NCBI GenBank assembly: GCA_949358305.1
Contig: OX442314.1
Location: 53,453,369 to 53,517,368, forward strand
Length of the DNA: 64,000 nucleotides
Reading direction: 5' to 3'
DNA from: Strigamia acuminata
Taxonomy: Eukaryota > Arthropoda > Chilopoda > Geophilomorpha > Linotaeniidae
Made by a program: the position numbers and the translations under genes. The notes beneath the pieces are model-generated. The model did not search any database. It had not been told where the DNA came from and saw nothing but the letters and a program-made list of their open reading frames with translations. Positions 10,476 through 57,957 of this stretch are shown piece after piece (position 1 is the stretch's first letter; the number at the start of each line of letters is the position of its first letter).

Positions 10476-13400
10476 ATGTCCGTCGCCCTGTCGATATCGC
10501 TGGTCGGAATCGCGCTCGTGCTCTACGCCGTCGTCGCGATCTTCGTGCGAAAATCGCGCAAGTCGGCCAAGTCGACGAACAAGGTGCTGCCCGGTCCGAC
10601 GGAGTGGCCGCTCATCGGCTCGGCGCTCACGATGGCCAAGTATCCGAAGCCGTGGGAAGGATTTGCGGCGCTGCGGAAGATCTACGGCGACATATACGGT
10701 AATTTTGATAATTAATTGTCAATAAATTTTGTTTTATTTTATTTTATTTTTTTTTTAAGGGATGCGAATTGGGAGTCAATACTGCGTGATTGTGTCGTCG
10801 GTTGAGGCGATTAAAGAGGTTTTGGTCTACAAAGCTGCGGATTTTGCGAATCGGCCGAATTTCGCGCGGTTTGCGGCCATTTTTAGAGGACGGAGAGATC
10901 TTTGTAGGTTTTTTGGTGTTTTTGGGAGGTTTTTGGGGGATGGGAAAGTGGATCAGGTGACCAACATGTGTCGTTCTAGATATGAGAAGGTCAAGGACAG
11001 GTGGTAGTGTTTCGTTGTCATTGTTAGGGTTAAACCCCCTGGTCCGAGCGGCGCTCTTTTGCTGGGTTGAAAGTGGTGGAGGGAATTGTGGGAAGAAATG
11101 TTTGTTGGGAAAAAGGTTTTTTGGATGTTTTAGATGGGGGGTTAAGGGAGATGAGGAGTGGGAAGGGGAATTTTGCGATGTTTGCAGCGGGATTTTGCTG
11201 GATTTGCGGAATTTGGCGAGAATTGGTGTGGTTTTGCCTTTTTTGCGAGGATGGGGATGATTTTGAGAGGATTTGTGAGAATTTTGGAAGAAGTTGTATG
11301 AATTTCGCGTGAATTTGTATGAATTTTGCGTGAATTTGTTCGAATGTGAGAAATTTTGCGAGAATTTGAAAAATTTTGCAACAATTTGCGAGATTTTGAA
11401 AAGTTTTGCAAAAATTAGCGAGAATTTGAATTGCAAAAATTTGCGAGAATTTGAAAGATTTTGCAAATATTTGCGAGAATTTGAAAAATTGTGCAAAGAT
11501 TTGCGAGAATTTGAACAATTTTGCAAATATTTGCGAGAACTTTTGAGAAAGTTTGAGATTTTGTAACAATTTGTGAATATTTTGCGAGAATTTGTGAGAG
11601 TTCACGAGATTTTTTAAACATTTCACTAGATTTTTTAAAGATTTCACGAGATTTTTGCGAGATTTTACAAGATTTTTGCGAAATGTCACGAGATTTTTTA
11701 AAGATTTTACAAAATTTTTTCGAGATTTCACACGACTTTTTCGAGATTTTATAAGACTTGCGAGATTTCCCAAGACTTTTGCGAAATTTCACAAAACTTT
11801 TGCGAGATTTCACAAAACTTTTGCGAGATTTTACAAAATTTTTGCGAGTTTTTCACAAGATTTTTGCGAGATTTCACAAGACTTTTGCGAGATTTCACAA
11901 GACTTGCGAGATTTCACAAGACTTTTGCGAGATTTCACAAAACTTATGCGAGATTTCACAAAACTTTTGCGAGATTTCACAAGACTTATGCGAGATTTCA
12001 CAAAACTTTTGCGAGATTTCACAAGATTTTTGCGAGATTTCACAAGACTTGCTCGATTTCACAAAATTTTTCCTCAATTTCACAAGATTTCTGCAAAATT
12101 TTACAAAATTCCTTCAAGATTCCACAAGATTTCTGCAAAATTCTACAAAATTCCTTCAAGATTCCACAAGATTTCGCCTAATCTTCACCAGACTTACCAA
12201 AAAAACCAAACCCCAAAAACTTCCCCAACAAAATCTAACCTCATCCTTTCTTTCTCCACCAACAGCCGTTGCCCTTTGCGACTGGTCCGACAAACAACGA
12301 AAACGCCGCGACATCACCTTCCCCTTCACCCACCCACGCACCAACTCCTTCGGCCTCGACCAACTCGAATCCTGCATCGAAACAACCCTCGCCGACATCA
12401 CCGACCAAATCCGCGCCCTCGACGGCAGCCCCGACGGCACCCACGACGCCCTCCTCTTCACCTCGGCCAACCTCTTCTACCACTTCCTCTGCACCCGTCG
12501 CTTCTCCTACCAGGACCCCCGCTTCGTCCAAACCATCCGCAACTACCACTCCATCTTCTGCGACCTCTTTCGCGGCTACTCGCTCGACTTCTTCCCCTGG
12601 ATCCGCTTCTTCAACGACCACATCCTCGTCCAGCTCAACAAACTCTCCGAGCAAGTCAGTTCCTTCACGCACCCGATTTTCGACGAGCATTTGGCGGATT
12701 TCGACGAAGACAAACCGCGGGACTTGGTGGACGTTTTGCTGGCGACGAGGCCGAGTCTGAGCGTCAACGATTCGCTGGTTATTATCGAGGATTTGGTCGG
12801 GGGACACTCGGCGCTGCACAACATGTGGATGTGGTTGGTGGCGTTGGTCGGAGTCAATCCGCAGGTGGCCGGGAGGATCAGGGAGGAGGCGGACCGGGCG
12901 GATGCGGATGCGGGCGGACTCAAGTTGAAGCATCGCTCGCAGTTGGTGTACACCGAGGCCACTATCAACGAAGCGCTCAGAGTTGTGGCGTCGCCGATCA
13001 TTCCCCACCGATCCACCAAAGACACCTGCATTCAAGGTATGTTTCGAGTGTTTTTGGAAGGTCGTCAATGTTGTCAATATCTGAAAATTGTATGGCGGAA
13101 TGTTTAATCACAACGGGCGGCATTTGAGCGCTCGAATGCGGCCTAAGTGTTGCGATTTTCCCTTGTGGGTACAAATGTGTGATTGTTGTTTGGTAAATGT
13201 TAAATTGTTGTTAGTAAATGAAAAATAACGTGCTTTAATCACATTATGTGGAAATTAAGATGGCTGAAAATGATGAAAATCAAGATAAGCGGGTCTGCAT
13301 GTGGATTTTCAGAAATTTGATTTTGTGATATCCGATTTTGATTTTATGACGTAAAAATCGTCGCTTACGGTCTCACGTAATCAAGAAAATCAAAGAAATT

Positions 13401-22182: not shown

Positions 22183-22800
22183 TTAATACGGCGACGACCA
22201 ATGTCGGGTCCTAGGTCTTCGAGTGGGCCCATAACCCCCTCGAATATTCGCACGAAATCGAGAGCCACGGCCTCTAAACGGGGCTCGGTATTGTCCTCTC
22301 GATGGTCGGTTTGTCGCAGTATAAATGCCCGGTAGGTTGGTGCGTTTCGCGCACACCTTGATCGCTCTGCCCCTGAACAGCGATTCGTCCATGGCCAAAG
22401 CGACCGCCACCGAATCCGAATCGGCGAACTCGATGTACGCAAATCCCTTGGGATGACCCGTCAACTTGTCGGACATTATGGTGACTCTATTGACCGCTCC
22501 GCATCCGACGAAATGTCGTTCCAATTCGTCCGCCGTCGTCCCGTAGTCGACGTTTCCGATATAGATGGATCGCGAATCCGACTCCGCCGCGTCTATTACC
22601 GGTGATTGCGAACCTGAAGATTCGCCACGATTTAGTATTCCAATGTCCACTTGCAGTTGCTTTAATTTGGCCGTTTCCTCTGCAATTTCTCGCGCCCGGG
22701 CTTGGAGTTCTTCCAGCGGCGAATCGGCGTTGTTGCCGTCCTCAACACGTTTTTCTTCGTAGTCCAATGAATCGTTCATTTCTACGTTAGTTTCCGCCAT
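22183..22800 (-). CDS. PABPN1: Nuclear poly(A)-binding protein 2 (PABPN1-like), intronless
   Basis: The 205-aa ORF has the family layout. First comes an acidic N-terminus, then a coiled-coil helix (EELQARAREIAEETAKLKQL, about residues 31-50). One RRM follows with RNP2 (SIYIGNVDYG, about 81-90) and RNP1 (GFAYIEF, about 120-126). The tail is Arg/Gly-rich (YRAPFRGRGSRFRANIRGGY). PABPN1 coats nascent poly(A) tails in the nucleus, boosts poly(A) polymerase and controls tail length. The ATG at 22800 was chosen because it starts the canonical MAETN acidic tract; an upstream ATG-like extension is not conserved in type. The gene has no introns and an unusually sequence-poor N-terminus, so it may be a retrocopy or an embryonic paralogue. 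A TATA box lies upstream. Confidence 0.93.
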   Translation of the reverse strand: MAETNVEMNDSLDYEEKRVEDGNNADSPLEELQARAREIAEETAKLKQLQVDIGILNRGESSGSQSPVIDAAESDSRSIYIGNVDYGTTADELERHFVGCGAVNRVTIMSDKLTGHPKGFAYIEFADSDSVAVALAMDESLFRGRAIKVCAKRTNLPGIYTATNRPSRGQYRAPFRGRGSRFRANIRGGYGPTRRPRTRHWSSPY

Positions 22801-22870
22801 TTGAAAGTAAATGTGGTGTGTGTCGGTTCGGGTTTGCAACGACTCTGTGGAGATTGAAGAGAGAAATTCG

Positions 22871-22880
22871 TCTTTTTATA
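22871..22880 (-). promoter_or_regulatory. TATA box of the PABPN1-like gene
   Basis: TATAAAAAGA on the minus strand lies 71 bp upstream of the start codon, which would place transcription start near 22845. The sequence and spacing fit a core promoter, suggesting the intronless copy is expressed. Confidence 0.5.
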
Positions 22881-24744: not shown

Positions 24745-27700
24745 ATGATGCTTAATCAGCGCAGATTCCAAAGACTTCGCAGAGTGATAAGACCATTGGT
24801 CGTTGAGTCAATCAACAAAGATAAGGAAATTTCACCAGAGTTTTACACACTTCTGGATCACACACGTTCGCACGCATTTCGTGTTTTTTGGACGTTGCTT
24901 GTCGTCATCTGTTTTTTCGTTTATTGCTACCAAATGCACGATTGCATTTCGTATTTCTCGTCCGAACCAAAGGCTGTTGATGTGTTTCAAAGGGAATTGG
25001 AGCACTTTCAGTTACCACCGGTGTCTGTTTGCATACCGTCATTCAAAAATCACAGTGAGCAAGATTGGTATCCGGGTTGGAAAAATCTTATCAAATAGGC
25101 CATTTTGGAAAACTGACCTCTCATTGTGATTCCTTGGATAATATCTAGAGTCACTACAGCATTATATGTTTATAACAAATTTGAACCTCTATAGTGGCCA
25201 GATCACTCTCTCCTGTTTGTCGTGATTGATCCTGCCCAGATGTACTCATTTTGCTCACTGTACAGTACATATAAACGAATTACATTTAGGTATCGAAAGC
25301 CTCGAAGAATTATCTCATTTTGACCAGACAAAACTTTGGAATTTGGACTACCCTATTGACATAATGAAAAAGATCACATTTGGAAGAAGCAACTATATGG
25401 TATGATACAAATTTCTGTGTTTCCATGTAAATTGTATACATTTTTATTGTATTAGCCAAATGTCCATATGGGGATTGATCAAAAACACAGAATCACACCT
25501 TTTGGCACGTGTTCACAACTAAAGAGTTAAGTATAATTAGATAATCAACGAGAACAATAAAAATTTTGGTTGTCCGTAAACTATATTTTTCAATTGTGTT
25601 AACTATTGTACACTTTTATATCAGTGAACAGATCATTGGAACATTCTGAGCTTGCAATGAGCTTGAAATTATACATGGATATGCCTGCAAAAACTGGACT
25701 TTTTCATGTATAGTATTGCAAATAGTCGAATCTCTTCTGTTGGTAAATCTAATAATTTAAAAATCCTATTTTAGCTCTCATGGGATAAACCATTTGATTT
25801 TCAATTCGTAGTAGGTAGGGCCGGTCAATATGTATTATTTTATGGCTTCTCTGTGACACAAGTAAGAATAATAATAAATCCACATCAAAGGGTTTCCACT
25901 CAAAACTATAAAGGTAGTGGGAAGTACTTTGGTATCCCATAATTATGGGCCCTAAGCTTTAAAGTCAGGGGTTTTTAGTTTTTCAGATGTGATAGTATAG
26001 GTATAACCGTCAATTATCCAATTAAGAACAATTCTCAACTTTCAAGTGACCAACAAAAAATTTTTGAGAGGGGCATAGTAGTTACTATGCCACAACGTAG
26101 AACTACATCCCGGTAGGAGTGGCGCTAGGAGTTGTCGTTGTTGCTTGTTGGTGTATTTGCTATCAGTATTGGTCTGTGCTGAGAGAAGTAAGAAATGTTT
26201 CTGTGCGCATTGGGTTATGTTGTTGATACAATGTTGATTTCCGGGGTTGTTTAAGCGCCATCTCGCGATGGGAAATGTTTCCCATCTTGACATTCTGAGG
26301 TTTGCAAACAATTTGAGTTGGCTTCAGTAGCTATTTCTGTTGCTTGCACTGGTTTAAATTTCTGCCAACAAGACGTAGTTTTACATCAAAATATTGATGG
26401 ATTGAAGTTGAAATTAATATTTTAACAGTATTTGTTTCTGAGCACGAAAGAAGAGCCGTGTGTGCCTAACGAAGAGTTTATATCCTGTGGTTTGCAATGC
26501 ATCCTGAAGAAGCTTGATAAACATACCTGCTGGTAATGTATAAATCATATTTCTGCCTTCCATTAAACTGCTTTGATCCTGCAATAATAATACAAGGGTT
26601 ATCCACAAATAACCCGAGTTCCCTTTTGGAGGCAAGGCCCCTTCTAGTATTTGCTTCTCCCACTAGGTGAGTATTCCAGGAACCTTTCGGCATCAGTATA
26701 TCAGATGGAATTCTTGTTAGATGGTGCGTGAGCTTGTGCTAAAAAGGGCCTGCCCTCCAGCAGAGAACTCTGGTTGTATTTGGGTACCCCCAAAAAGACA
26801 AGGTCTTTCGCTTAAGTGTTCAATACAGTAATACAGTATGTTACATATCGGTCATAAAAATTGTCACCTCCAATTTTTATGACTGCAATTGCACATACAT
26901 TTATACATATGTATTGAATGTAATTATTAGCATTCCATATTCTTTTATAAAACAATGTGACAATCCCTGCAACAATTCTAAAGATATATACGAATTGCTT
27001 GAAAAACACCAAACGAATGTAGCAGGAATAATACCAACTAATGAGTGCAAGTGCACAAGAAGCTGTCAAGATGAAGTTTATAATTTTAAATTAGAATTTG
27101 TACCAAGTTCTAACAACACCCAGACCATTATACGTTTATCAGATCAACACATAACTTTGTTCGAAGAAAGATTGCTCTATGACGTAATCAGTCTACTCTC
27201 TGACTTTGGTGGAAATCTCGGTCTTTGGCTGGGTCTTTCATTACTTTCTCTGATTGATGGCATAATTTGTTGCGCAAAAAGGAATAAGAGACAACAAATC
27301 AAGACGAGCACGATTAAAAAAGTTGAAAAATACCTTGACAAATGTCGCGCAGCATTTAAAGAAACAGTAGACAGAAAAACCAATTGGATTTATGCAGTTT
27401 ATTTCAGTTGCACCCTAGTGGGGTGTTACATTCTGCAAACTCGAATCAGCTTGTACTTATCTGGACCCATTCAGAAAGCAGTCAAGATTGAAGACCCTAA
27501 GAACATCACATATCCAGACATCATTCTTTGTCCAGGGACGCATAGTGGAAAACTCAATTTAAATAAAAAACGCTTTTTCGACAAATATCTCAAGAAGAAC
27601 ACAACCAAGTGTGATGTAGATGCATATGATCTTATACAGTTCAATAGAATCGACGCAGAAACGCTGTGGAATAAGCAGTTTCAAGCTAAACTGCTGGATG

Positions 27701-28839
27701 CTAGCCAATTTTCAGCTATGGTAAGTCATTCATTTTTAAATATAAATAAAAAACACTCGTGTAAATTTTCACTTACCTGATGGCTGACATTTCTTAACTG
27801 AGCCATCAATATTAATATCACTTCAAACCATACAAACCACATTATATCTTACAATATATTTATATTTCTCATGTACAGATGAGTGGATTTGACATATATA
27901 GCTCTAACATGACCTGGCTAAACTATACGGATGGTGTCTGCATGAAACAATCGTTTGGTAATTGCACTTCAAGACGTTAAAATCCACTTATTAATTTACT
28001 TTTACTTTTCTAAGAACCCAGAAAGTTTAAGACGCTCACTATAGCTCTTTTTGTGTTAGTGGAAGTGACCAATATTTGCAAACCAGAAGTTACAAGTGTA
28101 ATTACAATTAACAATTCCGATCATTGTGGTTTCAATATAACCGTCTTCTTTATTTTGTTTTAGGTGTATTGCAATGCACCTGGAGATCCAAATTTCCCGA
28201 ATGCATTTAAAGTAGAAATTTCATCTCTTCATATGAATCCAATTCTGTTTAAAGTATTAAAGGTGCAACATTTGAACACTTTGCGAAACCCATGTACCTC
28301 AAATGTAACTAAACATTACCACTGCAAACAAAACTGTTTGGCAGACAAAATGAAAAAACATCAACCGTGCAGGTCAAGTATAATTTAATCTTTGATCACT
28401 GAAATTAAATTGATAATCGCATCGTAATTTTTATTTCTTTGACAGTATGCCGTTCGCATTCAAGGAGAACACTCGCATGTGCAATTCTTCATCAATGGCG
28501 AAAGATGTGCGCAGTTTGTATTATAAAATTCACTCGTCGACCGATGTTGAAAAAGAATGCGCATGCCCACTACCTTGTCAACAATTGACTTACAAACTTA
28601 GTCCATTCCAATACCCAATGAAACAAGCGACGGCGATAATATTCACCATGTTCACAAATAAGGTGGAGTTTATAAAGGAAGAATTGGTGTATTCGTTTGG
28701 AGCTTTGGTTTCCGACATTGGAAATGCATTGGGACTCACTCTTGGTATATCTCTGCTCCTCGTAATGCACGTTGGGTGTAATCAATGGTTTCCCTTTGTT
28801 CAGAAAAATTATAATTCTCTAGTTAACCTAAAAGACTGA
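24745..28839 (+). CDS. Fused tandem DEG/ENaC channel, two subunits in one ORF, 11 exons
   Basis: Exons: 24745-25075, 25290-25399, 25456-25525, 25625-25707, 25775-25923, 26443-26532, 26931-27720, 27879-27957, 28060-28097, 28164-28372, 28446-28839. They sum to 2343 nt, 780 aa, all GT-AG. Subunit A has TM1 at about 47-63, ITPFGTCSQL, Cys-rich finger exons and TM2 at about 370-392 with the selectivity filter GLS in LGLWLGLSLLSLID. After a cytosolic linker of about 35 residues, the same exon continues into subunit B: TM1 at about 430-450 and ITYPDIILCPG. Then come YTDGVCMKQSF, CACPLPCQQ, and TM2 at about 737-759 with filter GIS (GLTLGISLLLVMH). Family members are trimeric amiloride-type Na+ channels, including arthropod pickpocket proteins. 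The gating His-Gly before TM1 is not evident. The 38-nt exon 9 is the weakest call. Confidence 0.85.
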
Positions 28840-32265: not shown

Positions 32266-32526
32266 TCTCAATTGTATTGTTTTCATTTACTTTTGTTTTT
32301 GGCTTGTGGGTTATGCTTTTTATGACTAAGGAATTTGAAAGGTGTTTTTGCCAGTCACTTTGGGTTTCAGAGGCCTAGTTGTAGGTGGGGGCTGAGTGCT
32401 TTTTCATTTAAAGGTTATTGAATTGTATTTTTCTCTTTGCTGGTGTGGTTGAGGACTCTGGAATTTATTTTCAGACGCACTGCAACCAACCAAACATTTT
32501 GGTGTTTATTTCTCTGGGTTCCCTCG

Positions 32527-33785
32527 TTTGCAGTGGTGCAGGGAGCATAAAAATTGGACTGTTGATGAGTGGAAGAAGGTCATATTCAGTGACGAATCAC
32601 GTATGTGTATTGGGAGTGGAGATGATTGTGGAAAATTTGTGTGGCGCAGAGTTAATGAAAAATTTAAGAATGAGTGTTAGTTAAAAACAGTTAAATTTCC
32701 ACAATCATTAATGGTGTGGGGTTCCATGTCATGGCAAGATGTGCATTGTCAACACAACTGTGAATACTGATGTTTACATGGACATTATTGAATTATTTTT
32801 ACTACACACAATCGAGGATCAATTTGGTTGTGAGTGTTTGGACGGACGCCACGTGGTCGAGGGAGAGCCACGGGATGCTGGACACAACACGCACGATAGG
32901 ATTCACTCTGAAATACACAAGAGACACAAGTTTAGTTTAAGGTAAGCTTTATTGATGTCTAGGGGTATGATGTGGTGTCTCCCAGTGCATTTCCCAATGC
33001 GATGGCGACGGATAGCCATCCCTAACTAGACCGCGTGGCACGTCGGCCATTGGCCGAATGACACACGTGGTCGGAATACTATTTGGCCGCTTCGTCGCTG
33101 CATTCACGGAGAACGCAGGTCGGGCACGGTGAACACGGACTATCAAGTCCCGACGTGCGACAGAGTCGCCACGCCAATCGCTGGATTCATCATCGCCACC
33201 AGTCTGGAAGAGCGGTCGTGGAAGCGACCGTTTGCCATGCTGGTTGCTAGAGAACTCTCTGGCTTCTGCGGAGCCCCACCACTTCTGGAAGGGCACTTCC
33301 GGGGCCCAATTGGTCGAAGCCAACGGCCCGAAGCTCTACCTGGTTGCGGGGGACCGCAACAGGTTGCGCACAAGAAACACGTGGTGCGCCAGAGCTGTGG
33401 AGTGCTGTGTGTTGCAGGTAAGTGACACAGCCTGCGTGGGCAGCTGGTCACATGGTGACTCTGATGACTTCATCTTCCAGGATGATAACGCCTCTTGCCA
33501 TAGAAGTAAAAAGGTGAAGAATTTGCTCTAAATTAAAGGAATTACCACTATGAAGTGGCCAGCACAAAGTCCAGATTTGAATCCGATAGAAAATGCCTGG
33601 TGGAAATTGAAACTTTTGGTTCATGAGAAAAAGCCAACCAATAAAACCGAACTTGCTGCAGCTCTAACTGCAAGCTGGAAAGAAATTCTCCACCAGTATT
33701 GTCAAGTACGTACTTGTTAGTTCAATGCCTCAACCCGTAAAGGCTGTCATTCGAGCAAGAGGAGGATCCACAAAGTACTAATAAC
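32527..33785 (+). pseudogene. Tc1-type transposase relic, split by an insertion
   Basis: Left part (32527-32830) translates to WCREHKNWTVDEWKKVIFSD (first catalytic Asp) and SLMVWGSMSW; right part (33465-33785) to DDFIFQDDNASCHRSKKVK (second Asp) and WPAQSPDLNPIENAWWKLK (third acidic residue). Stops and a frameshift occur in both, and 634 bp of unrelated DNA separates them. The DDE spacing after removing the insert fits a DD34E transposase. The 3' tail (33785-33880) is shared with the MITE at 21948-22137. Confidence 0.85.
32831..33464. mobile_element. GC-rich insertion inside the Tc1 relic (solo-LTR-like)
   Basis: The insert begins TGTGAGTGTTTGGACGG and ends near CACATGGTGACTCTGA, exactly between the EDQFG and DDFIF codons of the transposase. 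It is much GC-richer than its host. ORFs of about 100 codons on both strands have no recognised motif. Size and composition suit a solo LTR or a small non-autonomous retroelement; a target duplication is not certain. Confidence 0.6.
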
Positions 33786-38445: not shown

Positions 38446-41400
38446 TCATAAATTCAGTCTATCTGGTCCTTTTAATAACTCCCTCGGGCGCAAACCCTCG
38501 CGCCTCGGTGCACCAACATTTGGGTTGTTTTGGATGTTATCATTTACTCGGTGTTCCGTCACATCCCCAACCGGTTCCGGCACTTGATCCTCTTCGATCT
38601 CGACAATCTCCACATCCGATGTCCCCTGCTCCAAATCTATATCGTGATCCTCAATGTCGGTCCGGCCATCCCCACAAGTCCGCGTTGCTCCGTCGCTGGA
38701 TATCTCGCGATCCAGACGCATCTGATCGACGTGAACCGTTCTGGAAACCGCACCGACGTCTACAATATACGTCCTTGAACTCTGCACAGAACTAACGATT
38801 CCGCGCACCCATTCTGGGCCGCGTGTGTGATGTCTTTTTATCCATACCGCCTGGCCGACCTCAAAGGTACGGGCACAACGTCCGGTCTGCGCATTATGGA
38901 TCTTGTCCAACCGTTCGTGGACGTGACGTCTCATATTCGGCCTCACCAACGAAAACCGTGTTCGCATGTTCCTACAAATAAACAATTCCGCAGGAGTCTT
39001 ACCCGTTATTGCATGCGGAGTGTTTCGGTATCGCAATAAGAATCTCGTAATTTTGTGACTCGTAGTCGTATTGTCCTTCTCATCGGTCATCATACGCTCA
39101 AGCGACTCCTTAAACGTTCGCACAGCCCTCTCGGCAGCACCGTTAGAGGCGGGATGGTATGCCGGCACCAACGTCTGCTTAATTCCATTAAGCGCCAAAA
39201 ACGTCGCAAATTCTACAGAAGAAAACTGAGGACCATTGTCCGACACCAACTCGACCGGCACTCCAAAATCCGCGAACTTCCACCGTAACACCTCTATAGT
39301 CCGCTCAGATGTAGTTGTGGTCATCGGAATAACGTCAATCCACTTCGAAAAGCTATCATAAATAATCAAATAATGTATTTTCCGCAATTCGGCAAAGTCA
39401 ATATGTATGCGCTCATATGGGCCAGATGGCCACGACCATGATCTGAAGGGCGCCTCCGGAGGATCAGCTTGGCACTGCTGGCATGCATGACATTTCCTCG
39501 CAACGCTCTCTATCTCCGCGTCCAAACCCGGCCACCACACGTACGCGCGCGCAATCGACTTCATTTTCACCATCCCCGAATGCGTATCGTGCAATAAATC
39601 CAAAATGTGCGGACGATATTTAGTCGGAATCACCACACGCATTCCCCATACAATACATCCGTCATCGATAGATAATTCCTCTCGCCGACGTGAAAACGGC
39701 ATAATGTCCGGATCCTTCACATCACTCGGCCAACCATCCCCAAGATAACGCAAAACCGATCCCAACACCCTATCGTTCCTCGTAGCGGCACCAATATTCT
39801 TCGCCACGATCGGCATCTCATCGATGAACGACAACTTAAATATGTGCGATTCCACACCAACGACGCCATCCAGTATCGGCATGCGGGATAAAACGTCCGC
39901 ATTCACATTTTCACACCCGCGCTTGTATTCGATTTTATACCTAAATGTAGACAATAATAATGCCCATCGGCGAATACGCTCAGCAGCCAACGTCGGGATT
40001 CCCCGCTTGTCACCAAATATTGCCACCAAAGGAAGATGGTCGGTTACCAAAGTAAATTCTCTCCCGACGAGGTACTGATAAAACTTTTGCACGCCGCAGA
40101 CAATTGCCAAGGCCTCTCTTTCGCCTTGTGGATAGCCCCGCTGGGCCGGCGTCAAAGTCTGGGATGAATAACCAATAGGGCGCTCCTCGCCATTTGCCAT
40201 GATATGCGACAAAATGGCACCAACCCCGACCGGTGATGCGTCGCACGTCAAACGAAGCGGTTTGCGAACGTCGTAATGCACTAAAACCGCCTCAGATGTT
40301 AAAGCGCTCTTGCATTGCTGAAATGTTCGCTCACATTCCTCGGTCCATTTCCATTCCACTTTATCCTGCAAAAGACTGTATAAAGGGGTTAATTTAGTTG
40401 ACAAATCCTTTAAAAATTTACAATAATAGTTCAAAAGTCCCAAGAAAGAACGCAGTTCAGACACATTGTTCGGTGATGGCACTTTGTTTATCGCATCGAC
40501 TTTATCAGTCGTAGGATGAATTCCTTCCTTATCTATAATATGTCCCAAATATTTAATTTTCTTCTGCAAAAACTTGCATTTCTTTCGGTTCAGACAAACA
40601 TTATATTTTCTAAATCGCTCAAATAACGTTCTCAAAACCGCCAAATGTTCACTTCTTGACGGCGCAGTAGTCATGGTATCGTCCTGAAATGCCACAACCC
40701 GCTTAACACCTTGAATAATTTGATCGATTGCCCGCTGGAAGATAGCCGATGCCCCAGCAAATCCGTATACCAAACGTTTGGGGCGCATCAAACCCATATG
40801 CGTGTTTAAAGTCAAAATTTCCTGTGCCTGTTTATCAAGCTCGATCTGCTCATAAGCGTCCGAGCAATCAACGGAAGAAAATTCCTCCCCTCCGCATAAT
40901 GTCGCAAAAATGTCCTGTTGGGTAGGCAAAGGATATTGATTAATGTCCAAGCACGGGTTTACCGTGATCTTAAAATCGCCGCAACATCGCACCGATCCAT
41001 TTGGTTTTACGACGTTTACCAATGGTGTGGCCCACTCGGAATGCTCCACACGCTCCCAAATCCCTGCATCTAAATGTCGTTGAATCTGGGCCTCCACTGC
41101 CTGTTTTAACGCATATGGCACTGGCCGATGCTTGCAAAATACAGGCTTTGCGTCTTTACGTAACTTGATGGTCGCCTTAAAATCCTTTATTGGATCCTTT
41201 TTTGGCTCAAATAAACTGGAATAATCTCTTAATAAGTTCTCAACAGTATCCGGCTGATCAGATTTAATCTCGGTCACCGCAAAAATACTTTTCCAGTCCA
41301 AACTCACTTTTTCAATCCAATTTCGACCGAATAATCCCGGGCGATCCCCTTTTACCACCACCAACGGCAAAACATATGTCCTTTCCTTATATTTGATTGT

Positions 41401-42453
41401 GACATCGGTCTGTCCCTCGATCTCCACAATGCCACCGCTATATGAAAGTAACGTTATCCTGCATGGATTTAATGTCATTAATGGAAAATTCGCTTTAAAC
41501 CACTTTTCGCCCACAACAGCTACATCCGCCGCGGTATCCAATTCCATCTCCATCCGTACACCGGCAATTTCAACAGGAACCATATATTTCTTACAATTTC
41601 CGACCTTACCGATCGAGTATACTGGATACAATTCGAACGTTGGCTGTTCATCATCGCTTTCCGGTCCCCGGGCCTCGATCTTCTTCGCGAATTTTTGTTC
41701 GGGTCGAAACGTCTGCCTTTTCTGGCTTACACCTTTGGTTGTCCTCAATTTACATACTGGGGAAATGTGTCCAATTTTCCCACATGAATGACACGTCGCA
41801 CCGACGTATTTGCACCTGTCCGCGGAATGTTCGTATCCACAACGATAGCACGCCTCCCTGTCTCTATTTTTATCAAATCTTTGCCTTACCGGATGTCTCT
41901 CGTCCAATTTACTCACGGTAACGACTGGTGGCACTTTTATTTGCGTTGAATCTCGATCCACCATCTCCATGGCGGCCGCCGTGTCAACTGCATCAGTCAA
42001 TTTTAAATCCTTTTTTGACAGTAAACGTTTCTGGATCGTCTCATTCGCCAAACCGCATACGAATTTATCACGCAATGCGTCGTTCAAAAATGATCCATAG
42101 TCACATGTCGACGCCAATCGTCTCAGCTCGACGACGTACTCTGCAATCGATTCAACAGTATTTTGATCTCTTTTTAAAAACCTGAACCGCTCCGCGATGA
42201 TTATTGGAGCTGGTTTGTAATGGTCGGACAACTTCTTAACAATGTCATCCCACGTCCAATCTTTTGGCTCTGTCGGTTGCATGAGGTTTCTCAGCAACTT
42301 ATATGCGGTTCGACCCATTACCGCCATTAATGTGGATGACTGTTTATCCGCCTTTATCCCGTTAGCCAAGAAAAAATGTTGGAGACGCTCCAAATATAAG
42401 CAGAATTCTTCTTTCGTTTCATCGAACTCGCCAATTTCACCAATAATCGACAT
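38446..42453 (-). CDS. Gypsy Gag-Pol polyprotein, intact 1335-aa ORF
   Basis: One uninterrupted ATG-started frame. A Gag capsid-like region spans about 1-180 and two zinc knuckles about 201-235 (CYRCGYEHSADRC, CHSCGKIGHISPVC). The aspartic protease is at about 305 (MELDTAADVAVVG) and RT at about 480-660 with VVAFQDDTM, FQDD replacing the usual YxDD. RNase H is at about 735 (LTCDASPVGVGAILSH). The integrase H2C2 finger lies at about 960-1000 and the DDE core at about 1020-1120 (HIDFAE, SDNGPQFSS, GAAERAVRTF). No chromodomain or env is seen. Gag and Pol are fused without a frameshift, so their ratio must be set in another way. Plus-strand ORFs over this span are shadows. Confidence 0.95.
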   Translation of the reverse strand: MSIIGEIGEFDETKEEFCLYLERLQHFFLANGIKADKQSSTLMAVMGRTAYKLLRNLMQPTEPKDWTWDDIVKKLSDHYKPAPIIIAERFRFLKRDQNTVESIAEYVVELRRLASTCDYGSFLNDALRDKFVCGLANETIQKRLLSKKDLKLTDAVDTAAAMEMVDRDSTQIKVPPVVTVSKLDERHPVRQRFDKNRDREACYRCGYEHSADRCKYVGATCHSCGKIGHISPVCKLRTTKGVSQKRQTFRPEQKFAKKIEARGPESDDEQPTFELYPVYSIGKVGNCKKYMVPVEIAGVRMEMELDTAADVAVVGEKWFKANFPLMTLNPCRITLLSYSGGIVEIEGQTDVTIKYKERTYVLPLVVVKGDRPGLFGRNWIEKVSLDWKSIFAVTEIKSDQPDTVENLLRDYSSLFEPKKDPIKDFKATIKLRKDAKPVFCKHRPVPYALKQAVEAQIQRHLDAGIWERVEHSEWATPLVNVVKPNGSVRCCGDFKITVNPCLDINQYPLPTQQDIFATLCGGEEFSSVDCSDAYEQIELDKQAQEILTLNTHMGLMRPKRLVYGFAGASAIFQRAIDQIIQGVKRVVAFQDDTMTTAPSRSEHLAVLRTLFERFRKYNVCLNRKKCKFLQKKIKYLGHIIDKEGIHPTTDKVDAINKVPSPNNVSELRSFLGLLNYYCKFLKDLSTKLTPLYSLLQDKVEWKWTEECERTFQQCKSALTSEAVLVHYDVRKPLRLTCDASPVGVGAILSHIMANGEERPIGYSSQTLTPAQRGYPQGEREALAIVCGVQKFYQYLVGREFTLVTDHLPLVAIFGDKRGIPTLAAERIRRWALLLSTFRYKIEYKRGCENVNADVLSRMPILDGVVGVESHIFKLSFIDEMPIVAKNIGAATRNDRVLGSVLRYLGDGWPSDVKDPDIMPFSRRREELSIDDGCIVWGMRVVIPTKYRPHILDLLHDTHSGMVKMKSIARAYVWWPGLDAEIESVARKCHACQQCQADPPEAPFRSWSWPSGPYERIHIDFAELRKIHYLIIYDSFSKWIDVIPMTTTTSERTIEVLRWKFADFGVPVELVSDNGPQFSSVEFATFLALNGIKQTLVPAYHPASNGAAERAVRTFKESLERMMTDEKDNTTTSHKITRFLLRYRNTPHAITGKTPAELFICRNMRTRFSLVRPNMRRHVHERLDKIHNAQTGRCARTFEVGQAVWIKRHHTRGPEWVRGIVSSVQSSRTYIVDVGAVSRTVHVDQMRLDREISSDGATRTCGDGRTDIEDHDIDLEQGTSDVEIVEIEEDQVPEPVGDVTEHRVNDNIQNNPNVGAPRREGLRPRELLKGPDRLNL

Positions 42454-42604
42454 TTCTACTCACGTGAATCACCAACGTCCTTGCGAAGGTCGCGACAAAC
42501 ACAAATGGCGCACTCACGCAAAGTTGTTCACTCAATTTATTGTGTACACGAGAGAGCACAAAAGCTCATACACCACACAAAATTTATCCTATTCTCGTCG
42601 CCAT

Positions 42605-42822: not shown

Positions 42823-43119
42823 TGAGACGTTGCACGAGCAACTTGTATAAATGAAACACTCTTTAAACTTATTAAAACTACGGATGGAGTCGGATTCGGA
42901 TCGAAGGTTGTTGTAACTCAAAGAACGATGTAGACAAGGTTACATTTGAAAAGACAGTGATAATTTTATTCAATTTTGAGTATATAAAGCAAAGGGATTA
43001 AGATAATCCCCAATTCCAAGAATACATTTAATCCGGGTCACAAGTAAGTTTTCACTTGTGCCACGGTGGTCAAAACACTCAACTAAATTATTTCACTTTG
43101 GAAACCGCCAGTTTCCACA
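42823..43119 (-). repeat. BEL 3' LTR
   Basis: 297 bp. The polyprotein stop codon (43083-43085) lies inside this LTR, so the last 11 residues are LTR-encoded. Confidence 0.95.
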
Positions 43120-46100
43120 GTCCCCCCGTCCCGGCGGACTGGAACTTCGGTTTCTACTTCGAGGTTGCACAGTCTCTGGATGGGTCTTCGAAGCAGAGTT
43201 CCATTCGACATCCGAATTTCGCAGGAGCGAATCAAACCGTCTCGTCCTTCCTTCACGGAGGTGATGCGGCCCAGCTTCCACGTCATTCTCGGTTTGTTCT
43301 GGTCTTCGATGATGACAACGTCGCCAACATCAAATTTCGTTTGACTTGTATTTCCACGATGTTGTCGAAGCTCAATGAGGTATTCTTTGGTCCAACGATC
43401 CCAAAACCGACTCAGCAACGTCTGACGATATTTCCACGCTCTCAAAACAATTTCCTTCAATCCCGTGCCGGTTGAATACTTCTGTAGTGTTGGCAGGAAT
43501 GATATTCGTCTTCCTATTAAAAAATGAGAAGGGGAAAGGGGTAATTGCTCACTAGGATTATCATACACATAGGTTAAAGGCCTCGAATTTACAACGGCCT
43601 CAACCTCTGCCAAAATCGTAACAAGTCCTTCGTAGTCAAGCGAGTTTTTCCCGATCGTTTTCTTCAATGAAAGTTTTACGGAACGCACCATGCGCTCCCA
43701 GAAACCGCCCCACCAAGGTGCGGTCTCAACTATGTACTTCCATTTAATTTGTTTCTCCGTAACGAATCCCTGAAACTGGTCTTCTGGCAAACTTTTTAAA
43801 AATAAATTCAACTCCTTATCTGCTCGTATGAATGTCTTCGCATTATCGGAATATATCGTTTTCGGGATTCCTCGCCGACAAATAAAACGCTTCATTGCAT
43901 CTATGAAACGTTCGGTGGACAAACTCGAAACTAACTCAAGGTGGACTGCTCTCGTTACTGCACATGTGAACAGCGCAATATACGTTTTTGCCCCTAACTT
44001 GGTGTAGAGAGGTCCGGCAAAGTCAATACCACAAATTGCAAAAGGTTCACAAGGTTTAATTCGATCCACAGGCAGTAAACCCCACTTTTCTTTAGCCAGC
44101 CGCCCCTGTACTTTCCTGCACTGCACGCATTTGTTGATCACACTCTTGATGGTTTTTCGCGCTCGTAATACCCAAAACTGCTCTCGAAAACTGGCTAGTG
44201 TGTCGGCCAGTCCACCGTGGAGTAATCTCTCGTGTTCACCACGTATGATTAGTTTGGTAATCGGGTGCGAATGAGGAAGAATACAGGGCTCTCAAACGTC
44301 TCGAGGCACGTCTGCCAGTTGCCATCTGTGGGTTGCTCGAATTATTTCGTTGTCATCTAGAATAGGCGCAAGTTTAAATATTAGCGAGGTTTTTTGCAAC
44401 AGTTTTTTGTTTTTTAATTGTTTAAGTTCATCTCCGAAGTTGGTTTGCTGCAAGTATTTCACCCAATATTGTTCACTTAGTTTCAGTTCGTTGTTTGTTA
44501 ACGGTTCACCATTTCGAGTTTTCGTTTTCAGATTTGTTATGAATCGAAACGTCCAAGCGGTGGCTCTCTTTAATTTCTTCCAAGTGCTAAATCGAGTGTA
44601 ATCGATGTCTGGTTCTGCAATTGTTATTAATGTCACTTTTACTTCTTCTTCGTCGTCCTCGATGATTGGATTCACGTTCACGTCTTCATTTGGCCATCTC
44701 GATTCGTTGTCTGCAAGCCACGCCGGTCCTTTCAACCAAAATGGTTCTTCGGTGAGCTGTTTTACGTTCACTCCCCTCGTAACCAGGTCGGCTGGATTAT
44801 CCTTTCCAGGGCAGTGGCGCCAATCGTCTCTCGATGTATTCTCGACAATTTCTCGTACACGATTGTACACGAATGTCGCTGGTCGGTTCTTGGTGTCGCG
44901 GATCCAGTGCAAAACTATCTTGGAATCGGTCCAAATTGTGAAATCCTCACACCCAAGAGTCGCTTTCAATGTTGGAATCAGTCTTGTTGCCAGTAGCGCG
45001 CCCATCAGCTCTAGCTTTGGTAATGTTAGTTCCTTTACAGGCGCCACTCTACACTTGGAAATGATAAAATCAATATTAACAGCATTTGTTTCGTCCAGAA
45101 CTCGAGTGTAGGCTACTACGCCATACGCTCTCGGACTGGCATCACAGAAGATGTGAATCCTTTTCCTACAATTTCCTCCCCAATTTAACAATTTGCGCTC
45201 TAAATTTAAATTTTTGAGGTAGGGTATCTGAACATACCAATTTTCCCATTTTATCTTCACATATTCTGGAATGACGTCATCCCACCCAACATTTAATTTC
45301 CAAAGTTCCTGAAAAATAATTTTAGCAGTTATCACAAAGGGGTTTGCCATTCCCAACGGGTCAAAAATCATGGCGGTAATTCTTACAATAAATCTCTTGG
45401 TGTATTTGGTCAAGTTAATCTCGTTAATCAATGCACTAATGTCTAATCCCAATTTATCCAACTCAATATCCCAAACTACCCCCAAAACTTTAGTTTTCTT
45501 TTGAAAAACTGTCACGTCACAATCTGGGTCATCTCGTATAATTTTCTCTTTGAATTTCACATCATTCGACTTCCATTTGGTTAATTTCATGTTCGCGGCT
45601 TGCAAAATCTCACGACTCTCATCATAAATTTGAATTAACTTGTTCGAATTGTCAATACTTGTTACAAAATCGTCTACATACAAGTCTTCTTTCAGCTTGT
45701 CGCATGTGTCCGGGTATTGGTCTTCAAACTTGTCGACGTGTTCTTTTACTGTTGCATTTAGTAAAAATGGACTGGGTCCTGTCCCAAATGGAACTCGAGT
45801 TTGGCGCAATTCAATTAGTTTTACCGACTCTTCACCGTTCCACCCGTCCTCAATCCAATAAAGTCGTGTGACGTCTCGTTCGTCCGTCTTGAGATGTATT
45901 CGATGGAAGGCTTTCTCGATGTTGCCGATTGCGCCGTATTTGCCGGTTCGGAACTTCAAAACAATGTTTATTAGATGAGGTAACATATTCGGACCCTTAC
46001 TCAGACAGTCGTTTAGCGATAAACATCCCTTTGCGTGTGACGACGCGTCATACACAATTCTTAGTTTTGTTGTGGCTCGAGTTTCGTCAATTACTGGTCG

Positions 46101-48362
46101 ATGAGGGATATAATACGGGTTGTCTGGTTTCGAGTTCTTCGGAACTTTTTCCAAGATTCCGGAGGCGAGTTGTTCGTCGATCACTTTTTTATAGTCTAAA
46201 TATAACTTGGGATTTTTCCGAAAACGGTTAATTAAACTCCACAAACGCTTTTTTGCAACATCTCGATTGTCGTTCAATTCCTTGCGGTCAATCTTCCACG
46301 GGAATCCCACTTCGTAATGGTCATCTACCCACTCGATCTGCTCTTTGAATCGTTTCAACGTGTCCACTTCATCGATTCCCGGTTCCATAGTCTCGTGGCG
46401 AATCCCAATCGATTCCAAGTTCCAGAATTTTTCTAAAAGTTCATCTGTATTATCGGCAACTAAAATCTTGTTTACCCGTACTAAAGACGACACGGTTGTT
46501 TCAGTCTCTCCGGTTGAGCCGTGCAACGTCCATCCAAATATGGTTTCGATTGCCATGAGATTTTCGTCGATGCGTTGCTGCTTTCCCGTTGTAACTCTCC
46601 AAAAGTTGTCGACGCCAATTAAGATGGAAACGCCGTCGTCCCTGTGAACGCTGTTGTCGTAAGCCAGTTTGATGTTGTATTTCTTCAGTTTTTCCAATAC
46701 TCGTTCGTCAGGTTTTCCTCGTAATGTCGGAGTTATCCAGGGCGACTCAAGCGCTTTGATTTCTAAATTGCAATTTCTATTTTCACAGTTATTCAAACTT
46801 AACTTCACCTGTTTCCGTTTGGCAATTGTTGGTTCAGTAGATCCGAAAGTCAAGAGGGCGATTGACTGCTCACCAATCTTCTCTAGTTGCAGTTCTCTCG
46901 ACAGTTTTTCAGTTATAAAGCTTCTTTGGGATCCCCCATCCAAGAAGCATTGGACTCTTCTCTTCTCGTTGTTTCCGTTGGCTTCCAACATGACGACCTG
47001 CAGGAACATCACGGTTTCCGTATTTGTTGATTCTTGAACGGCCGAAGTCAAAGTTGTTTCCGTCTTCTTGTTGTCTTCCTTATCGCACAAGTACGTGTGA
47101 TGTTTCTGCTCGCATTTCCTACATTTAAATCGGGTATTACATTGACGAGCTTGGTGATTTTCTTTTAGACATCTGTAGCAGCGACGTGCTTTGAAACACG
47201 CTTCTTTCCGCTTCTCGACCGTCAATGGACAGTCCGGACTCTTGTGGTCTTCCTTTTCGCAAAATGTGCATTTGTAAACGATGTTGGAAAGGGCTGAAGC
47301 GGAACTGTGATTATTAGATTTGTAATTGGTTTTCTTCACCTCTTCTTTTTTGGTATTCGGGACTTCCGTCGATTCTTGCTGTGGTTTACTGGTTTTATCG
47401 GCGGCTTCCGTACGTTCGCGCATCGCTACTTCGAATCTAAAAAAGTCCAAAAATTCTTTAACAACCCAAGGTGCATCTCCTCGTGGACGTGCAAAATCAT
47501 GTTGTATGCTGGTTGGCACAGCACGCGCGAGTATTGGGCATAACAATGGGCCAAAGGTTTCCGTCGGTACTCCGAGGTTTTCGAGGCTTTTAACATGCAG
47601 GTCGCAGAAATCATAGAGTCTCCGTAGGGCCGCCACATCTTCTACTCGTTTCACGGATGGCATTTCGAGCAGTTTGGCCATGTGTGCACCGACAATTTGT
47701 TCCTTCTGCCCAAATCGATTTGTAAGGAGAGAAATGGCAGTGTCGTAATTTAACTCGGTTACAGTCAGTCCGCTGATTGCATTCGCTGCAAGACCTTCAA
47801 CTAACGAGCGTAGGTACACAAATTTGGCTGTTTTGGGCAAAGAAGCGTTATTATGGACACTCAATTCAAAATCTGACCAGAACCCCGTCCAGGTTTCTGG
47901 TGTGCCTTTAAACTTGGCGACCTCGAGCTTCGGCAGTTTCATCACTGCGCATTGTGGTTGGACTGGATTTGGGTTTTGCACAGGTGGAACGAAAAGAGGG
48001 TTAACTGGTGGTATATTTACGAGTGGTACTTGCGGTGGTTGTTGTGGTGGTGTTTGTTTCATTTGCGCGAGTTCTTTCAAGGCGACTTCGAGTGTGATTC
48101 CGGCGGCGGTCATCTCGTCTTGTAGTTCTTCCGCTTCGAATTCGTCTTGGTCCACCTCGTTCACGTCGGTGATCCCGTCGGCGATTATTGTGTCCAGTTT
48201 ATCGATTTTCAAACGTTTTGTGATTAGTTGGGCTTGTATGCATAATAATCGTACCTCGTTGAGGGGATCCTCGGCCATTTCTTTCTTCAATTTCTCAAAA
48301 AGCGCACGCACGCTTCTTCTTTGTGTTTCCCTTTGTGCACGACTTCTTGCCAAATCGTCCAT
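43083..48362 (-). pseudogene. BEL Gag-Pol polyprotein with one in-frame TGA
   Basis: A single frame runs from ATG 48362 to 43083, broken only by TGA at 44292-44294. Before it: a Gag-like DUF1759 region (about residues 150-250) and three Cys/His knuckles (CTFCEKEDHKSPDC, CYRCLKENHQARQC, CRKCEQKHHTYLC). Next come a DUF1758-type protease (QCFLDGGSQRSFI), RT with LYVDDFVTS, and a BEL-type RNase H (IHIFCDASPRAYG). After the TGA follow the integrase finger (HERLLHGG ... CVQC), the DDE core (IDFAGPLY, SDNAKTF, GGFWERM) and a DUF5641 tail. A single nonsense change between RNase H and integrase fits a recent inactivating mutation; readthrough cannot be excluded. An upstream non-ATG extension to 48386 is open but not needed. 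Confidence 0.93.
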
Positions 48363-48393
48363 TTTCGCGTTCTGGTTCGTTTTCAAAAATGTT

Positions 48394-48411
48394 TCCCGGG
48401 TTTCGGCACCA
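48394..48411 (-). other. BEL primer-binding site (tRNA-Phe)
   Basis: Immediately next to the 5' LTR, the plus strand reads TCCCGGGTTTCGGCACCA, the exact form of the tRNA-Phe T-arm and acceptor 3' end including CCA. The tRNA would anneal here to prime minus-strand cDNA. Confidence 0.85.
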
Positions 48412-48708
48412 TGAGACGTTGCACGAGCAACTTGTATAAATGAAACACTCTTTAAACTTATTAAAACTACGGATGGAGTCGGATTCGGATCGAAGGTTGT
48501 TGTAACTCAAAGAACGATGTAGACAAGGTTACATTTGAAAAGACAGTGATAATTTTATTCAATTTTGAGTATATAAAGCAAAGGGATTAAGATAATCCCC
48601 AATTCCAAGAATACATTTAATCCGGGTCACAAGTAAGTTTTCACTTGTGCCACGGTGGTCAAAACACTCAACTAAATTATTTCACTTTGGAAACCGCCAG
48701 TTTCCACA
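48412..48708 (-). repeat. BEL 5' LTR
   Basis: 297 bp, apparently identical to the 3' LTR. It contains GAGTATATAAAGC on the plus strand, but no minus-strand TATA could be assigned with confidence. Confidence 0.95.
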
Positions 48709-49035: not shown

Positions 49036-49788
49036 TTAATTTGTATGTTTACTTAAATGTTTTTTCAAGCCATGTCTTTTTAGTTGCACACTTGTAATAC
49101 AGGTATAAGCACACGTATCACACTTGAATGGTTTTTCCCCAGTATGGGTTGCAATGTGGCCTCTTAGATTTCCACTTTGAGTACAGGAAAAAGCACAAAA
49201 ATGGCACTTGAATGGTTTTTCTCCAGTATGTATTAACAAATGAGTTTTTAAATCCCATCTTCTAGCACAAGAATAAGCACACAAATGACACTTGAATGGT
49301 TTTTCTCCAGTATGTATTAACAAATGAGTTTTTAAATTCCCACTTCTAACACAAGAATAAGCACAGAAATGGCACTTGAATGGTTTTTCTCCAGTATGTA
49401 TTAACTAATGAGTTTTTAAATTCCCACTTTGAACACAAGAATAAGCACACCAATTACACTTGAATGGTTTTTCCCCAGTATGTATTAACAAATGTGATTT
49501 TAAAGCCCCACTATGAACACAAGAATAATCACACAGATGGCACTTGAATGGTTTTACCCCAGTATGTATTAACAAATGAGTTTTTAAATCCCCATTTCTA
49601 ACACAAGAATACGCACACAAATGACACTTGAATGGTTTATCCCCAGTGTGTATTAACATATGTGTTGTTAAATGCCCACTTTGAGCAGAAGAATAAGCAC
49701 ACAAATGACACTTGAATGGTTTTTCGCCAGTATGTTTAAGCATGTGTTGTTTCAATTGAGAATAATATGAACCCGAATAGTCACACAT
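49036..49788 (-). pseudogene. C2H2 zinc-finger gene, 9 fingers, stop-disrupted
   Basis: One frame holds nine C2H2 fingers with TGEKPFKC linkers, ending at LSKHTN. The fifth finger has a TAG (49405-49407) where its siblings have Leu (KTHLLIH). The reading frame continues unchanged after it, so a single nonsense mutation splits the protein into five and four fingers. Upstream, the poly-A tract next to the ATG near 49822 is out of frame with the first finger, unlike the clean MKIKRQDF start of the paralogue at 56122. Translation would therefore have to start at the internal Met 49788. Such proteins are DNA-binding transcription factors. This copy is probably defective. Confidence 0.85.
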
Positions 49789-52831: not shown

Positions 52832-53350
52832 TTACTTTGTATGCTTTATTAAATGTTTTTTTAAAGTATCATTTCGACTACTAGAATAAGCACACAAATG
52901 GCACTTGAAAGGTTTTTCTCCTGTATGGGTTAATAAATGTCTCTTTAAATGTCCGATTTGACTGCAGGAATAATCACACAAATGGCAGTTGAATGGTTTT
53001 TCTCCAGTATGTGTTAATAGATGACTTCCTAAATGCCCACTTTGATTGCAAGAATAAGCACACAAATGGCACCTGAATGGTTTTTCTCCAGTATGAGTTA
53101 ATAAATGTTTTTTTAGAGGTCCACTTTGACTGCAGGAATATTCACACAAATGGCACTTGAATGGTTTTTCTCCAGCATGAATTCTCATGTGGACAATCAT
53201 GCATTGTTTAACCCGAAAGGAAAGTGAACATGTTTGACATTGGAAAGGCTTTTCACCAGTGTGTTTGAGCATGTGGTGTTTCAAAAGATAATAAGATGAA
53301 CCCGAATAGTCGCACAAATTGCAACTGTAATCCTTGTGGTTTCTCTCCAT
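52832..53350 (-). CDS. C2H2 zinc-finger protein, 6 fingers, intact
   Basis: 172-aa ORF. MERNHKDYSCNLCDYSG starts at ATG 53350, chosen because siblings begin the first finger just after their Met; a non-ATG frame extension to 53392 is ignored. Six fingers follow with HTGEKPF linkers. Finger 2 (CQTCSLSFRVKQCMIVH) differs in type from the CHLCAYSC/CDYSC fingers, suggesting a separate origin. It ends LIKHTK. Tandem fingers with conserved linkers bind DNA sequence-specifically, so a nuclear transcription factor role is likely. No KRAB, BTB or ZAD domain is visible in this exon. Part of a locally duplicated cluster, all on the minus strand. Confidence 0.85.
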   Translation of the reverse strand: MERNHKDYSCNLCDYSGSSYYLLKHHMLKHTGEKPFQCQTCSLSFRVKQCMIVHMRIHAGEKPFKCHLCEYSCSQSGPLKKHLLTHTGEKPFRCHLCAYSCNQSGHLGSHLLTHTGEKPFNCHLCDYSCSQIGHLKRHLLTHTGEKPFKCHLCAYSSSRNDTLKKHLIKHTK

Positions 53351-53399
53351 TTTAAATAAAAAAATAACGGGATTTGCAGTTAGGTCGGTCAATGTTTGT

Positions 53400-54300
53400 T
53401 TCGCCGACTGGCGCTCAATTTCTGCTGGCTAAAGTCGCTGATCACACGCAAAGTGGATGCACTCTCAGCCTATAAGAAATTCAATGTTCCGTATACATTT
53501 GGACAGTCTTCAAGAACTAACATATTGTAAAACAGTGTAAAGTAAATCTCGACGTCCTAATTTCTTTAGTGGCATGTCTTACTTACTTCAATTCGTAGAA
53601 TTCAAATAAGCCTAACGATTCTCCGATTGTCTCAACTTTAAGAGCGCGCGCAACATGAGCGGATCAGGGAATTGTGGGTAGTCAAGAATGACTAAACAGA
53701 TAGAGCCATCTCTTGAGCATTAATTGTGACTACCTTGTCAAGAGGACGATACTGTGGGATAATCAACACTACACGCTCATTAGTTGCGATAATATTGGGT
53801 ACAAATCTGACTAAACGGACACAATCCCGTTTGAATACGGCCCCAATTTGAATATATTTTTTAGCAAAATTGGTTTGGATTTAAAATAAATAGTAAATAT
53901 CTATTTAAAAATAAAACAAATTCGAATTTCTTAAAAATACTAGTCTCTTCTTCAAACAAATTAATAAATACACAGTAGTGTCTGCAAATGTAAAATAATT
54001 AGCAAGAATTGCATTTACGAATTTTTAAATATAAAATATGCACTTTAAATCTAAACTAAGCATTTTTCGTGTTAAATAAGCATTGCTCTTGTAAAATATG
54101 CATTTTTCATGGAAAAATATGCATGTTTTGATGGAAAAACTGCACTTCAATTGTAAAAACATAAAAACTAGTTTTAAGAACGAAAATTAAATCCAATCAA
54201 TCGACAAAAACCTCTTTAAACGTCTTTACAATTGGATAACAACTATTAAATTCTTCTTTCCATAAGTTCATTCGATTTGCACGTCTACACTAACCACTCA
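53400..54300. other. Upstream region of zinc-finger gene and AT-rich spacer
   Basis: 53400-53840 is less AT-rich and probably contains the promoter of the 6-finger gene, but no TATA box or exon was identified. 53840-54230 is AT-rich with repeated AAATATGCATTTTT-like words (54040-54125). Confidence 0.4.
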
Positions 54301-57950: not shown

Positions 57951-57957
57951 ATATAGA

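Follow-up and report, generated by a model that had tools for sequence, protein, structure and literature searches.

Tandem DEG/ENaC-type domains in a predicted gene of the centipede Strigamia acuminata and in a large family of related genes

We analysed a stretch of 64,000 nucleotides from the centipede Strigamia acuminata (contig OX442314.1, hereafter C1; C1:53453369-53517368), called the window throughout, in which the plus strand between 24745 and 28839 carries a gene of 11 exons that would encode 757 amino acids (aa) in a single frame across all GT-AG joins. Its predicted product comprises two domains of the DEG/ENaC channel superfamily, each with two transmembrane (TM) helices, joined by a short linker (Table 1). 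Genome searches covered 237.5 Mb in 157 contigs.

Gene structure at the locus

The join between the two halves lies within exon 7, which has an AG acceptor and a GT donor, spans 790 nucleotides (nt) and has no stop anywhere in its frame. An earlier, sequence-only reading of this DNA had described a single open frame at 26931-27720 that holds the TM2 helix and GLS filter of one domain, about 35 cytosolic residues, and the TM1 helix and ITYPDIILCP motif of the next, and all of these are present as it stated. All introns are of the GT-AG type, the remaining exons complete the two domains without a break in phase, and the two filters differ (GLS in domain 1, GIS in domain 2), again as read earlier. 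The length of 780 aa proposed at that time has to be revised to 757 aa in 11 exons; both models count the fusion exon as the seventh. A draft with 9 exons and 706 aa was replaced once exons 25456-25525 and 25625-25707 were found, which are conserved in a close copy of the gene at C1:55.77 Mb. This draft, or pieces of it, was used for the structure matches, the identity of 31% between the halves, the relatives of exons 8 and 9, and the fragment at 57231-57977.

Taken alone, the open frame of exon 7 is weak evidence for a fusion: a run of 263 open codons occurs at 2.3%, and one of 35 at 23%, of random places in the window, coding sequence included. The fusion is strongly supported because 260 of 269 long relatives are free of stops, the order of exons is conserved and the linker is under selection.

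Table 1. Exons and membrane-related features of the gene at window positions 24745-28839. "Copy" is the close relative at C1:55.77 Mb.
Feature	Position	Strand	Description
Exon 1	24745..25054	+	start codon, cytosolic N-terminus, TM1 of domain 1, LPPVSVC post-TM1 motif; 92% nt identity in copy
TM1 of domain 1	24874-24930	+	in exon 1; hydropathy 2.01; residues 44-62
Exon 2	25290..25399	+	domain 1, extracellular
Exon 3	25456..25525	+	domain 1, FGTCSQL (presumably the site of the family's G-x-C-x-x-F element); 97% identity in copy, splice sites intact there
Exon 4	25625..25707	+	domain 1; 94% identity in copy, splice sites intact there
Exon 5	25775..25861	+	domain 1; splice sites intact in copy
Exon 6	26429..26532	+	domain 1, cysteine-rich
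Exon 7 (fusion exon)	26931..27720	+	last part of domain 1 and first part of domain 2, one frame
TM2 of domain 1, GLS filter	27217..27273	+	hydropathy 1.99; residues 351-369; Pfam
Linker, 35 residues, predicted cytosolic	27280..27384	+	12 lysine/arginine vs 4 aspartate/glutamate
TM1 of domain 2, then TYPDIILCP	27385..27441	+	hydropathy 1.25; residues 407-425
Exon 8	27879..27957	+	domain 2, GVCMKQSF
Exon 9	28060..28097	+	domain 2, 38 nt; 62-77% aa identity in relatives where located
Exon 10	28164..28372	+	domain 2
Exon 11	28446..28839	+	end of domain 2, TM2, stop
TM2 of domain 2, GIS filter	28717-28773	+	in exon 11; hydropathy 1.82; residues 718-736

Comparison with known channels

Each half, taken separately, matches the Pfam profile PF00858 (ASC; 74.4 bits for the first and 57.8 bits for the second, with a gathering cut-off of 23.6), which bears out their earlier assignment to DEG/ENaC. 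Both comprise a TM1 helix, a cysteine-rich extracellular part and a TM2 helix. Among solved structures, the best match of both halves by sequence is PDPNaC1 (PDB 9jf7; the 706-aa draft, which matched best within domain 1, gave E 1.4e-13, and domain 2 by itself gave 2.1e-10). The extracellular parts of the halves align with it, and it has the same cysteine-rich layout and TM2 region, but it is a chain of 421 aa with one domain. BRTNaC1 (PDB 8ymr) is the second-best structure match of both halves and also differs from the fused gene in having one domain per chain, of 431 aa. Structures such as FaNaC1 (E ~1e-7), ASIC and pickpocket 26 (0.01 or worse) belong to the same superfamily by their TM2 region and match much more weakly; these three likewise have one domain per chain. 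The original reports describe PDPNaC1 as a proton-dissociation-permeated sodium channel of the centipede Scolopendra subspinipes mutilans that forms a homotrimer (PMC12714832), and BRTNaC1, from this centipede as well, as the trimeric broad-range thermal receptor 1 (PMC12804983). The fused gene departs from the canonical plan of one two-TM domain per polypeptide, since two domains lie in frame, here and in the copies examined.

The motif P-x-[IV]-x-[IVL]-C that follows TM1 in DEG/ENaC channels is found as PPVSVC in domain 1 and as YPDIILC in domain 2, and the G-x-S filter tract typical of their TM2 is present in both halves. A His-Gly gating motif, common before TM1 in ENaC and ASIC and not curated as defining, was not found before either TM1 of the 757-aa model. 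PDPNaC1 likewise has none in the aligned stretch and, because it is a characterised channel, the motif would not be defining for the centipede-type branch. The GAS tract is named in the abstract of the PDPNaC1 report (PMC12714832). We infer that the fused protein is a DEG/ENaC-type cation channel. Among 14 control genomes, the PF00858 profile also scored above its cut-off, unexpectedly, in one, that of the bacterium Thermotoga maritima.

Joining the subunits of one pore in a single chain has been done artificially, in the engineered concatemers of ENaC, ASIC and P2X, and occurs naturally in K2P channels, two-pore channels and four-domain sodium and calcium channels. In these natural cases two or four domains fit a four-fold pore evenly, whereas two DEG/ENaC domains go unevenly into three. 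A natural covalent tandem is not known to us for DEG/ENaC channels, which are three-fold. The earlier reading likewise knew of no described two-domain member, and the open-access literature gave none among the matches listed, which were judged by titles and the beginnings of abstracts (subscription papers and sequence databases lay outside this search). By a term search, the words ENaC, pickpocket, degenerin, sodium channel and amiloride are all absent from the main text of the paper on the Strigamia maritima genome.

A family of fused genes

The 263-aa translation of exon 7 has at least 145 matches in the animal's own genome, at 26-100% identity, most of them stop-free across both TM helices. 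Three more queries, chosen from divergent subfamilies, gave at least 148, 144 and 144 matches. Merging the four yields at least 294 distinct places, which is a lower bound, because 141-147 candidates were scored per query and because only the rows thought to add places were taken from the third and fourth queries (37 of 144 and 74 of 144). At 269 places a single match extends over at least 570 nt, with a stop in 9 cases and without one in 260. Two of the 260, on the small contigs C32 and C50, have scores similar to those of C1 and C4 places, of which they could be alternative haplotypes. The copies are largely arranged in arrays, for example on C6 (3.7-4.3 Mb) and C1 (4.2-8.0 Mb).

The order of exons was tested by separate searches with the first and the last exon in two sets of copies. 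Set 1 held the first 82 of 145 fusion, 86 of 150 first-exon and 87 of 150 last-exon matches (the stronger rows, and weaker rows near arrays); set 2 held the first 88 of 148, 89 of 150 and 92 of 150, respectively. Within 9 kb, the next match in set 1 was a TM1 exon upstream for 73 of the 82 fusion exons and a TM2 exon downstream for 75, with both in 69. The corresponding numbers in set 2 were 71, 62 and 54 of 88, the last becoming 74 of 88 when the distance was extended to 40 kb. The succession of TM1 exon, fusion exon and TM2 exon was thus found within 9 kb for 123 of the 170 fusion exons pooled, and a second fusion exon was never the next match within 9 kb (0/170 across both sets). Two pairs of adjacent fusion matches in set 1 are farther apart (~10 and ~60 kb) and involve partial or stop-bearing matches. 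A scan of 19.5 kb of array showed the series TM1, TM2-TM1, TM2 complete twice, together with gene parts at the edges and one lone fragment with the TM1 of domain 2 (TM1b). At 42 loci (L031-L072), most of them picked for this exon, all 43 matches to the TM2 of domain 1 (TM2a) continue into TM1b without leaving the open frame. Genes with three or more domains were not found in the stretches examined, namely the array scan and the two neighbour sets.

The sequence-only reading had raised the objection that the assembly might join two genes, and this is ruled out because many copies carry the same design. The fused genes form a large family, with ~260 or more members, that most simply expanded largely in arrays. 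The window itself contains, at 57231-57977, a broken domain-1 fragment with in-frame stops and 57% and 40% identity to the gene at 24745.

Origin of the two halves

The two halves of the gene are 31% identical over their best 150 residues. We built a tree of 57 TM2 regions out of 83 stretches; the 26 omitted were near-copies of domain 1, except L010_h1, which is a short overlapping frame. The subfamilies sampled contribute 18 domain-1 rows, and these make up one side of a branch with support 96/86 that is present in 96% of bootstrap trees. The 10 known domain-2 rows are elsewhere in the tree, together with four unclassified end exons, two of which (L010 and L025) sit with the domain-2 exon of L064. 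The residues before the filter are GGN in 39/39 domain-1 sequences and GN, GS or AN in 10/10 domain-2 rows. On the basis of the tree and the low identity we reject a recent duplication of a single domain within the gene, so that the earlier statement that the halves are not a recent copy holds. Because of the domain-1 clade and the consistent difference before the filter, the halves must have differed before the subfamilies split. The simplest history would be a single ancient event that fused two subunits already distinct from each other, followed by expansion.

Selection on the linker and losses of introns

Comparison of the gene with its copy at C1:55.77 Mb, over 615 codons in 7 of the 11 exons, gave 0.137 synonymous (dS) and 0.054 nonsynonymous (dN) substitutions per site, hence a dN/dS of 0.39. 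The copy has no stops, its splice sites for exons 3-8 are intact, and exon 7 is 94% identical at the nt level.

In the linker, 12 pairs of close relatives gave pooled values of 0.049 for dN, 0.177 for dS and 0.278 for dN/dS (Fisher p ~1e-8, with sites treated as independent); the near-identical pair L037/L038 was excluded, and L047/L052, L057/L059 and L058/L060 were included. The codons of the linker are therefore under purifying selection, and the constraint is no weaker than in the flanks of exon 7 (pooled dN/dS of 0.43 and 0.39). Retention of codons would not be expected of a spacer between two genes. A few single pairs with few synonymous changes have dN/dS above 1: L033/L042 (2.0) and L049/L050 (1.6) on the TM2a side, and the latter also on the TM1b side (1.2) and over the whole exon (1.07). 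Among 39 members the linker has 32-47 residues in 36, and 76, 76 and 73 in three where the rule misplaced the helix. It is net basic in all 39 (minimum +4, median +9), as expected for a cytosolic loop.

Some introns have been lost exactly. A close copy has a GT-AG intron of ~70 nt inside the region of exon 10 that is precisely missing from the window gene (28164-28372 compared with L032/L061), and the intron between exons 6 and 7 is precisely absent in the relatives L033, L034, L035 and L042. Exact losses suggest recombination with spliced mRNA, and hence that the gene family is transcribed in the germ line. Such mRNA-mediated loss may lie behind the repeated cases in the family.

Discussion

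We consider it probable, at roughly 0.82, that the locus encodes one polypeptide with four TM helices, made of two DEG/ENaC subunits and a basic linker, and that it belongs to a large family that arose by an ancient fusion and then expanded. The DNA supports the presence of two complete DEG/ENaC domains in one predicted polypeptide. Some observations weigh against this view. At least one of the two neighbouring exons is missing within 9 kb of 47 of the 170 fusion exons and, in set 2, within 40 kb of 14 of 88. In the TM2 tree, the branch that unites the domain-2 rows also takes in the four unclassified end exons and is weakly supported (73/75). The TM1 of domain 2 is moderately hydrophobic in the window gene (1.25), the weakest of its four helices (the others range from 1.8 to 2.0), and the segment on this side of the domain, taken in isolation, matches positions 21-101 of PF00858 at 18.6 bits, under the cut-off. 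Equivalent segments of nine members have PF00858 as best family in 9/9 cases, at the N-terminal end of the profile (positions 13-110), yet 7 of the 9 fall under the cut-off and 2 pass. AlphaFold prediction of the fusion exon with 16 sequences was uninformative (pLDDT, its confidence score, of 42).

The locus might instead make two proteins, either as a tight tandem of two genes with an internal poly(A) site or an internal start, or from a fused protein that may be cleaved at the linker. The frequency at which 35 codons are open by chance in the window leaves room for this. Nevertheless, a stop interrupts only 9 of 269 long family matches, the linker has a dN/dS of 0.28, and ~35 intronless codons between TM helices offer little space for a 3' end and a promoter. 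Separate transcripts for each half are unlikely because of the purifying selection on the linker and the exact intron losses, and overall we regard two proteins as very unlikely. It is extremely improbable that the gene is an assembly artefact or a pseudogene, as might be thought from the existence of fragments and disrupted copies, one of them in the window, and from the two possible haplotypes on C32 and C50. There are hundreds of divergent stop-free copies, and a pseudogene is ruled out by the conserved exons and splice sites of the copy and by the dN/dS.

How the two-domain chain would assemble is a separate question. A three-fold pore is not evenly filled by two-domain chains, and there could therefore be two domains in one pore with a third from elsewhere, two linked pores, or one half outside the pore. 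The earlier reading had suggested a 2+1 or a six-domain stoichiometry. We give an even chance to the first, a 2+1 assembly, in which the basic cytosolic linker of ~35-45 residues would join two subunits in one chain, the two domains would take up two positions of a single three-fold pore, with another DEG/ENaC domain in the remaining one. This third domain could be supplied by a single-domain subunit common to many members, or by a second chain, and the linkage would fix which two domains adjoin. We favour this arrangement because the genome appears to contain single-domain DEG/ENaC genes (the exons at C5:5189920-5193253 are an example, and their last one ends after TM2) and because receptors that combine many variable chains with a common partner are a familiar design. 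It is also possible, with appreciably lower probability, that three fused chains bring six domains together into two linked trimeric pores, one of domains 1 and one of domains 2, in a double-barrelled channel. Such a channel would need no partner subunit, both halves are under constraint, and the two types of TM2 differ consistently before the filter, as if they lined separate pores; on the other hand, the apparent single-domain genes could be the partners that this assembly dispenses with. Any other assembly seems distinctly unlikely.

Domain 2, or domain 1, could also stay outside the pore and act as a regulatory or trafficking component built into an ordinary channel, which would be compatible with either assembly. 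The loss of GG before the filter in 10/10 domain-2 rows and the weakly hydrophobic TM1 of the window gene fit this idea. Yet domain 2 retains the G-x-S filter in 8 of 10 rows (G-x-C in the two others, L065 and L067), its cysteine pattern and purifying selection, and we think such a role unlikely.

The size of the family, its arrays and its divergence suggest, with somewhat better than even odds, a sensory repertoire whose specificity would depend on the fused chain. That the 2+1 assembly extends to a chemoreceptor-like repertoire of several hundred genes, encoding pseudo-dimers with a symmetry mismatch that share an invariant single-domain third subunit, is a more doubtful proposition; it would be the DEG/ENaC counterpart of designs with a variable receptor and a common co-receptor. 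If expressed as one chain, the fused genes would be a natural experiment in stoichiometry, nature's own concatemer in hundreds of variants, and these variants would reveal which contacts between subunits are fixed and which vary. They would also mean that an arthropod has expanded DEG/ENaC channels into a family of receptor-like size.

Other features of the window

Several other stretches of the window were read by eye. On the minus strand, 22183-22875 holds a 230-aa frame reminiscent of a nuclear poly(A)-binding protein that carries a single RNA-recognition domain, and 38446-42459 and 43083-48506 hold frames of 1337, 402 and 1404 aa that resemble polyproteins of long-terminal-repeat retroelements. 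A short frame at 32453-32684 is like a fragment of a Tc1-type transposase, the frame at 52832-53428 reads as C2H2 zinc fingers, and at 11755-13107 a P450-like stretch lies in a frame adjoining long low-complexity tandem repeats. Searches of the window with Rfam gave zero matches at gathering scores. Arrays of an 84-bp unit are found at 49105-49739, 52839-53180, 55799-56026 and 58950-59104. In the whole genome, a 30-base run of TTAGG, the telomere repeat, has 7317 forward and 11387 reverse matches, overlaps counted (4 and 6 for the backward control), and the repeat is present at the start of C1 and also at an internal place, C1:115054.

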